A DNA stretch of 64,000 nt from Oscillospiraceae bacterium (GTDB lineage: Bacteria; Bacillota; Clostridia; Oscillospirales; Oscillospiraceae), in contig JAFPWN010000046.1 in assembly GCA_017412765.1 (NCBI GenBank), positions 1 to 64,000 of the forward strand. Reading direction: 5' to 3'. The notes under the pieces are model-generated. The model saw only the letters and a program-made list of their open reading frames with translations. It was not told the origin of the DNA and ran no database searches. Below, in pieces: positions 26,136 to 52,044 of this stretch (position 1 is the stretch's first letter; every line of letters begins with the position of its first letter). The translations under genes and the position numbers were made by a program.

Positions 26136-26148
26136 CCAAAAAGCACAA

Positions 26149-26359
26149 GGGCGGGTCATCACGACCCGCCCTCAATGCGTCGACAAAGTCTCCGCATCGA
26201 ACATATTTTGCACTCTCGGAGCGCAAAATATGACGCCTACGGGCGGGTGATGCGACGTGAAGGGGCCTCTTGGCCGGCCCCTTCACAGATCCCCGCCTCC
26301 TATATCCAACGCTTTTTCTTTTTGTCTACAGTCTGAGGGCGGGTCATCACGACCCGCCC
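26149..26359. mobile_element. T element copy 1, bracketed by duplicated hairpin
   Basis: A core of about 164 nt (26172-26335) begins ATGCGTCGACAAAGTC and ends TTTTTGTCTACAGTCT. It is flanked on both sides by an identical 24-nt hairpin sequence starting AGGGCGGGTCATCACG (26148-26171 and 26336-26359). The core contains two strong hairpins, CATATTTTGC/GCAAAATATG and GTGAAGGGGCC/GGCCCCTTCAC. It is about 94% identical by eye to the core at 49534-49695, which is bracketed by a different duplicated hairpin. The core ends are weak inverted repeats (GTCGACAAAG and CTTTTTGTCTAC). No coding capacity. It lies between convergent genes (GH32 and MATE). Confidence 0.75.
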
Positions 26360-26377
26360 GAATTCTTTATATTACCT

Positions 26378-26578
26378 CCGCAAAGCGCGGTGAAGTATGT
26401 AGGAGCAGGCACCGAAAGTTACTTCCGCAGTAAGCGGCCAAGCGTGTTAGATGCTTCGCGTATTATACAACAGCATCGCGCAGATCGGCGCACCCATGTG
26501 TAACGGTCTCAGACAAGAGCTTTTATCTCTCTCTTGGTTCCGTTCTCTCTCTTTTTCCCGAAAAAGAGAGAGAACGAA
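26378..26578 (+). repeat. R200 repeat copy 1
   Basis: A ~200 nt repeat that matches, in inverse orientation, copies at 30017-30216 and 46867-47072. Shared blocks include CCGCAAAGCGCGGTGAA, AGTTACTTCCGCAGTAAGCG, CTTCGCGTAT, AAGAGCTTTTATCTCTCTCT, and a terminal hairpin of GTTCTCTCTCTTTTT type. No open frame is shared between the copies. Confidence 0.8.
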
Positions 26579-26585
26579 CAGAAAC

Positions 26586-26606
26586 GGGCGGGGTATTTCC
26601 CCGCCC
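26586..26606 (-). terminator. Intrinsic terminator of the MATE gene
   Basis: Stem GGGCGGGG/CCCCGCCC with a 5-nt loop, followed on the minus strand by GTTTCTGTTC. It lies 9 nt after the MATE stop. Confidence 0.8.
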
Positions 26607-29992: not shown

Positions 29993-30016
29993 GGCGGCAT
30001 TCCAACCGCGCTTATA

Positions 30017-30216
30017 TGTTCATTCTCTCTCTTTTTCGAGAAAAAGAGAGAGAATGAACCAAGAGAGAGATAAAAGCTCTTGGCTGTGACTATCAGACTT
30101 GGCGCCACTTAATGCGCGGTGTACTTTGTCTGATACGCGAAGCGTCTAACTCACTTAGCCGCTTACTGCGTACTCAGTCTTACTGCCTGCTTCTACACAC
30201 CTCACCGCGCTGTGCG
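30017..30216 (-). repeat. R200 repeat copy 2
   Basis: Inverse orientation to copy 1. It starts with the hairpin TTCATTCTCTCTCTTTTTC, then CCAAGAG...CTCTTGG (30059-30083), TCTGATACGCGAAGCG, CTTAGCCGCTTACTGCG, and ends in CTCACCGCGC. It occupies most of the gap between rplQ and spoVAC. I see no gene in that gap. Confidence 0.8.
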
Positions 30217-30262
30217 TTTGTGATTTGCAGCTGTACGATCGCAAAAAGCACACATAATAAAA

Positions 30263-46866: not shown

Positions 46867-47072
46867 TTCATTCTCTCTCTTTCTCGCTGAGAAAGAGAGA
46901 GAACGGAACCAAGAGAGAGATAAGAGGCTTTTGGCGGTGACCGTCACACTGAGGCGCCTCTTAATGCGCGGTGCTGTTGTCTGATACGCGAAGCGGCGAA
47001 CGTCGCTTGGCCGCTTACTGCGGAAGTAACTTTCACTGCCTGCTTCTACGGCTTTCACCGCGCTTTGCGGTG
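46867..47072 (-). repeat. R200 repeat copy 3, in the dusB leader
   Basis: Same orientation as copy 2 and inverse to copy 1. It shares the initial CTCTCTCTTTC hairpin, CCAAGAGAGAGATAA, TCTGATACGCGAAGCG, GGCCGCTTACTGCGGAAGTA and the final CACCGCGCTTTGCGGTG hairpin. A perfect match to this last 17-nt hairpin also occurs alone at about 51711-51727 between dnaX and the SRP RNA gene. Confidence 0.8.
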
Positions 47073-47101
47073 GTATCTAAATATTATAATAAGGTATCTT
47101 T

Positions 47102-49502: not shown

Positions 49503-49726
49503 AAAAAAGGACGGGAAAAATCCCGTCCTTTTTGATGCGTCGACAAAGTCTCCGCATCGAACATATTTTGCGCTCAGAGAGCGCAAAATATGACGCCTGC
49601 GGGCGGGTTATGCGACGTGAAGGGGCCTCTTGGCCGGCCCCTTCACAGAACCCCGCCTCCTTTATCCAGCGCTTTTTTCTTTTTGTCTACAGTCTAAAAA
49701 GGACGGGAAAAATCCCGTCCTTTTTT
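49503..49726. mobile_element. T element copy 2, bracketed by duplicated terminator
   Basis: The core, 49534-49695, begins ATGCGTCGACAAAGTC and ends TTTTTGTCTACAGTCT like copy 1. It is flanked by two copies of the same canonical bidirectional terminator, stem GGACGGGA with A and T tracts (49503-49533 and 49696-49726). The internal hairpin CATATTTTGCGCTC/GAGCGCAAAATATG is perfect here and imperfect in copy 1. It lies between convergent genes (anti-sigma and ybaB), and each gene ends at one of the two terminators. Confidence 0.8.
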
Positions 49727-51737: not shown

Positions 51738-52044
51738 GTGAGCGGAACTGCGCGGGGCCGCACACCTGCCTTTGATGGCGATATCCACCCGTTACATACC
51801 CTCCGGACTCAGAACCGGCGAACCCGCGGCACACAGGCAAGCCCCTGCTTAGTGCTGCTTGGTTCCCCACCTGACACGGTTCACAAGCGCCTGTTGCGCG
51901 GGACCGGCTCTTCAGCATCCTTCAGATAAGGCAGACGACACATATCACCACCGGGGGCAGGGATTCATTCCCACTGTAGCGGATTGTGGGTTACAGGGCA
52001 CCGCTATCTCCCCAACTAGTGCGGCTCGGCGCAATTCCGCTCAC
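51738..52044 (-). ncRNA. ffs: Signal recognition particle RNA, large Gram-positive type
   Basis: About 307 nt on the minus strand. The SRP54/Ffh-binding domain IV is clear: GTGTCAGGTGGGGAACCAAG then CAGCACTAAGC, with the GGAA tetraloop. The two ends pair (GTGAGCGGAATTGCGC with the CGCAGTTCCGCTCAC end), and the 5' half holds the Alu-like domain, as in Bacillus scRNA. It assembles with Ffh for cotranslational membrane targeting. It ends in CAATTTTTG and lies upstream of dnaX, as in many Bacillota. Exact ends are estimated from the pairing. Confidence 0.92.

Follow-up and report, generated by a model that had tools for sequence, protein, structure and literature searches.

Two sites in the 64-kb stretch of Oscillospiraceae DNA analyzed here (the window) carry nearly the same short core between two identical copies of a hairpin, which differs from one site to the other, and this arrangement raises the question of what placed the core and what duplicated the hairpin. 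At site 1, between a GH32 hydrolase gene (+) and a convergent MATE transporter gene (-), the hairpin AGGGCGGGTCATCACGACCCGCCC lies at 26148-26171 and again at 26336-26359 (24 nt, folding as a 9-bp stem); at site 2, between convergent genes for a zf-HC2 anti-sigma-like protein (+) and YbaB (-), the terminator-like hairpin AAAAAGGACGGGAAAAATCCCGTCCTTTTT lies at 49504-49533 and 49696-49725 (30 nt, with a 12-13-bp stem, A-tract and T-tract). Direct reading of the sequence bears out the original prediction that the copies are identical at each site, and also its description of cores of ~163 nt that are ~94% alike (163 and 162 nt, 93-94% alike), whereas the ends required revision: the element proper spans 26173-26335 (+) and 49534-49695 (+), and T26172, where the first core was thought to start, is the base of the hairpin foot and lies outside the element. 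At site 1 the element reads 5'-CAATGCGTCGACAAA ... TTTGTCTACAGTCTG-3', as delimited by direct reading and core comparison, with terminal inverted repeats (TIRs) at 26173-26187 (+) and 26321-26335 (-), both without mismatches, and with internal hairpins at 26202-26232 (CATATTTTGC...GCAAAATATG, from a self-complementary match and its fold) and 26257-26286 (GTGAAGGGGCC...GGCCCCTTCAC, from direct reading and fold); the limits of site 2 come from direct reading, core comparison and a check of the TIRs. A second interspersed repeat family adjoins site 1 at 26373-26591 and recurs at 30006-30221 and 47004-47075, with 72-nt and 49-nt arms that are 85-89% complementary, and the window also encodes a bacterial large SRP RNA (Rfam RF01854) at 51758-52024 (-).

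The 163-nt core is a MITE, in that it is short, multicopy, without a transposase gene and bounded by TIRs, and it has both target site duplications and empty sites in relatives. The repeat CARWSYGTMGACAAA is found at both ends, and most copies have 5'-CA...TG-3' termini. The host genome (G000; 2.28 Mb in 74 contigs) contains 40 scored copies and ~60 right ends, and mean core identity is 92.5%. Across 33 sister species of the genus, similar numbers occur in two (G026 and G028), and a search at E 0.001 returned no copies from the remaining 31 genomes; what matched weakly in G011 and G030 proved to be a different GC-rich repeat. One copy (L085, 1160-1232) is shortened to ~70 nt, retains both ends and has a 9-nt duplication.

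We surveyed the flanks of 97 complete MITE copies from G000, G026, and G028, comparing left with right against a cross-paired null (95th percentile 9; threshold applied 13). The same hairpin stands on both sides of 80 copies, with similarity well above the cross-paired controls, and it is particular to each site and not a conserved part of the MITE, as had been proposed from the two window sites. Direct duplications of 21-35 nt are present in 62 of the 97 copies; in these, the longer the hairpin, the longer the duplication (r=0.90), with duplication ends 0-4 nt from the stem feet. Of the left MITE ends, 76 adjoin a hairpin, as do 77 of the right ends, compared with 36 of 3000 random positions (1.2%). 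Direct duplications of 10-20 nt were not found among the 97 copies, and a minority have duplications of 6-9 nt (L013, L051, L057, L069, L084, L121, L155, L160), usually at AT-rich sites, weak hairpins or a single hairpin arm. The target duplication lacks the constant length of a fixed-duplication DDE element, in that it spans 21-35 nt according to the hairpin and includes a separate 6-9-nt class. As 17 of the 97 copies lack a matching pair, showing differing hairpins, a one-sided hairpin or 6-9-nt duplications, more than one outcome of insertion exists. Two MITEs (L073, L161) and three IS copies (L204, L205, L241) have a different hairpin on each side, perhaps through recombination between element copies.

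The MITE enters DNA hairpins almost exclusively, and most of these are putative gene terminators: the nearest ORF end lies at a median of ~31 nt from the insertions. The convergent setting noted at both window sites does not extend to the family, as a crude ORF survey placed 39 copies between convergent, 40 between co-directional, and 10 between divergent genes. Orthologous sites in sister genomes have one hairpin and no MITE, as anticipated for empty sites, with pairs including L015 vs L139, L035 vs L123, L014 vs L144, L037 vs L165, and L143 vs L177; the L015 and L139 flanks agree at 98%, with no change in the left hairpin copy. The sequence comparisons establish mobility, hairpin targeting and hairpin-length duplication as properties of the MITE. 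Some terminators carry a MITE in two or more species, at times in opposite orientations (L033/L065, L133/L142), and cores that share a target hairpin across species are often not nearest relatives, which together point to repeated targeting. An in-place flip of the MITE between palindromic flanks was considered for the opposite-orientation pairs and set aside, since core similarity fails to pair them; independent insertions are more likely, with the proviso that 160-nt cores yield weak trees. One MITE (L058, 1441-1599) lies within a tRNA-Cys-like sequence that closes a tRNA array, where it interrupts the anticodon arm and the arm is duplicated; ARAGORN does not call this sequence as an intact tRNA.

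A candidate source of transposase is found at the contig breaks of the host assembly. One end of an IS lies at the ends of contigs C42, C49, and C39, and the other end at those of C41, C51, C52, and C68; these ends carry the terminus TTTGTCTACAGTCTG, as in the MITE, next to duplicated hairpins (C39/C51, C49/C52, C41/C42). The terminal ~15 nt are common to MITE and host IS, and only this terminus is shared. For C39/C51 and C41/C42, both flank pairs are neighbors in sister genomes, where the terminator itself has diverged. One host IS end encodes a transposase C-terminus that aligns over 70 aa, with 54% identity, to a full-length IS1182 transposase from a sister species. Searching with profile NF033551 (IS1182) recovered the same host C-terminal fragments, which match the end of the profile at E 4e-5 and, as fragments, fall below the cut-off. 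The full-length relative (L110/L181) scores 440 bits against this profile (cut-off 270), contains DUF772 and DDE_Tnp_1_6 domains, has ends CAGTCTGTCGACAAA...TTTGTCTACAGTCTG, and is flanked by two copies of AACCACTCGTTAAACGAGTGGTT. An intact IS was not assembled from the host genome, where the copies sit at contig breaks, and DUF772 was for this reason not found in the host contigs; no matching transposase was found in the G026 and G028 assemblies. A PF13751 match at C12 was rejected as a partner, being unrelated. The shared termini and the same target behavior suggest that the MITE is moved in trans by the IS1182-family element of the host.

This behavior extends to transposase-encoding relatives. 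In Oscillospirales and the wider Bacillota, IS1182 copies with CAG...GACAAA-type ends have exact hairpin duplications of 22-35 nt that abut the CAG...CTG ends: 22 nt in L235, L236, L244, and L256, 24 nt in L238, 25 nt in L182, 28 nt in L185 and L206, 30 nt in L207, 31 nt in L254, 34 nt in L208, and 35 nt in L239. To judge from the transposase tree, hairpin duplication is concentrated in one IS1182 clade of 19 members (support 100/99), which holds 13 of the 14 duplicators. Its six other members include the three IS copies with unlike left and right hairpins, and two (L240, L246) in which one side runs off the contig. Outside the clade 1 of 20 elements duplicates, and several such elements have GGGGCTGTCC-type ends.

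Together these observations make it very probable that the core is a MITE mobilized in trans by an IS1182 DDE transposase, which targets a hairpin and, through cruciform formation and fill-in, leaves a duplication of hairpin length. The target would be a DNA hairpin recognized by structure rather than sequence, usually an intrinsic terminator and once a tRNA anticodon arm. The palindrome would be extruded as a cruciform, and on each strand a 3' end of the transposon would be joined to the 5' hairpin foot, so that the single-stranded hairpins remain as 5' overhangs, the filling-in of which would yield one complete hairpin per side. Joining at the hairpin feet with subsequent fill-in would give a duplication that equals the hairpin in length (21-35 nt) rather than one of fixed size, and the cut positions are likely to be set by structure, because duplications stop at the stem feet and lengthen with the stem. 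The original prediction of a non-autonomous, hairpin-targeting element with an unusually long target duplication is in this respect upheld, both by the duplications at most other copies found with the core in this genome and its relatives, and by the single-hairpin empty sites. A wider proposition, that this IS1182 clade targets extruded cruciforms and cuts the junction in a resolvase-like manner, such that DNA structure, in place of a stagger set by the protein, determines how long the duplication is and in some cases its orientation, is tentative, and we lean somewhat against it.

The orientation of the duplicated loops bears directly on how such an intermediate might be processed. Were the cruciform resolved in a resolvase-like manner into hairpin-capped flanks, and the caps then opened at either foot, the second copy could be direct or inverted, and 6-7 of ~80 duplicated hairpins (L003, L015, L048, L086, L129, L141) are indeed loop-inverted; the empty site of L015 identifies the right copy as the flipped one, and an autonomous IS1182 copy (L209) likewise has a duplicated hairpin with a flipped loop. 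Yet 69 of the 80 copies are direct (the others being six clearly inverted, one weakly inverted, and four undecidable), and loops also flip at hairpins free of any insertion, in 2-3 of ~36 compared between G026 and G028. In this comparison terminator loops invert while the stems are unchanged, at ~6-8% of compared hairpins, for example L151 (at 6939) vs L171. As insertion-free hairpins flip at a similar rate, the inverted fraction does not exceed background, and flipped loops at orthologous hairpins led us to drop them as a signature of capped intermediates; later loop inversion would be sufficient to explain the flipped duplicates, and we regard hairpin-capped flanks as unlikely. Loop inversion, and the proneness of hairpins to template switching, might also be cited for a replication or repair process that duplicates a local hairpin, with the core as passenger or recombination product, as the original prediction had offered in the alternative. 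Such copying need not be invoked, as full-length IS1182 insertions produce identical kinds of duplication, and it is hard to reconcile with the presence of one core with fixed termini in ~60 different hairpins per genome, or with orthologous sites in sister genomes, which hold one hairpin when empty and at which no paired hairpins lacking the core were seen. We consider it very improbable.

It might instead be transcription that draws the transposase to terminators, through a paused polymerase, an R-loop or an RNA hairpin, and not DNA structure, in keeping with the terminator-like character of most targets and their closeness to ORF ends. The entry of MITEs into the same hairpin in both orientations, the use of a tRNA-Cys-like anticodon arm as a target, and the coincidence of duplication ends with the feet of the DNA stem all speak against this reading, which we think improbable. 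Targeting of the DNA hairpin by an IS1182-type transposase accordingly remains the explanation we prefer.

Hairpin targeting by IS1182 elements is itself already established, through IS1272 and TnSha1, both of which lose the hairpin (PMC5678879; PMC4923244). IS1272, an IS1182-family element of Staphylococcus with ~16-bp IRs, targets inverted repeats and terminators without sequence consensus (Wan et al., 2017; PMC5678879), and resembles the present elements in both family and preference for structure over sequence. It replaces, and so deletes, the hairpin without target duplication, for which a pathway "a" was proposed (PMC5678879), whereas here stem-loop replacement does not describe the outcome: 80 of 97 copies retain the hairpin in duplicate, and what is inserted is a 163-nt MITE with ~60 copies. 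TnSha1 and TnSha2 insert in hairpins that RNA-seq has shown to be terminators (Furi et al., 2016; PMC4923244), and do so repeatedly and in both orientations at one target, with blunt deletion of the stem-loop and no duplication (PMC4923244). The MITE likewise strikes terminator hairpins repeatedly and in both orientations, but duplicates the hairpin that TnSha elements delete. ISfinder may list IS1182-family members with long palindromic direct repeats (DR 0-60 bp), which would then be alike in their target repeats. IS110/IS1111 and other elements insert in REP or attC hairpins by means of a DEDD transposase; they share the structured target and differ in transposase type and in duplication, as they are not known to make such a hairpin duplication. 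In the literature searched, we found no description of hairpin-length duplication, or of its link to a clade or to a MITE. A hypothetical pathway "b", in which attack at the 5' feet duplicates the whole stem-loop, was drawn by Wan et al. (2017; Fig 13, PMC5678879).

The present findings supply that hypothetical pathway with ~80 natural examples, complete with empty sites and tied to one transposase clade. As a hairpin is retained on each side of the MITE, the neighboring genes keep their terminators, which explains how one bacterium carries dozens of gene-adjacent insertions without terminator loss. More broadly, these elements offer a direct means of testing whether DNA structure is read by some DDE transposases, and of approaching the extrusion of cruciforms at terminators in vivo.
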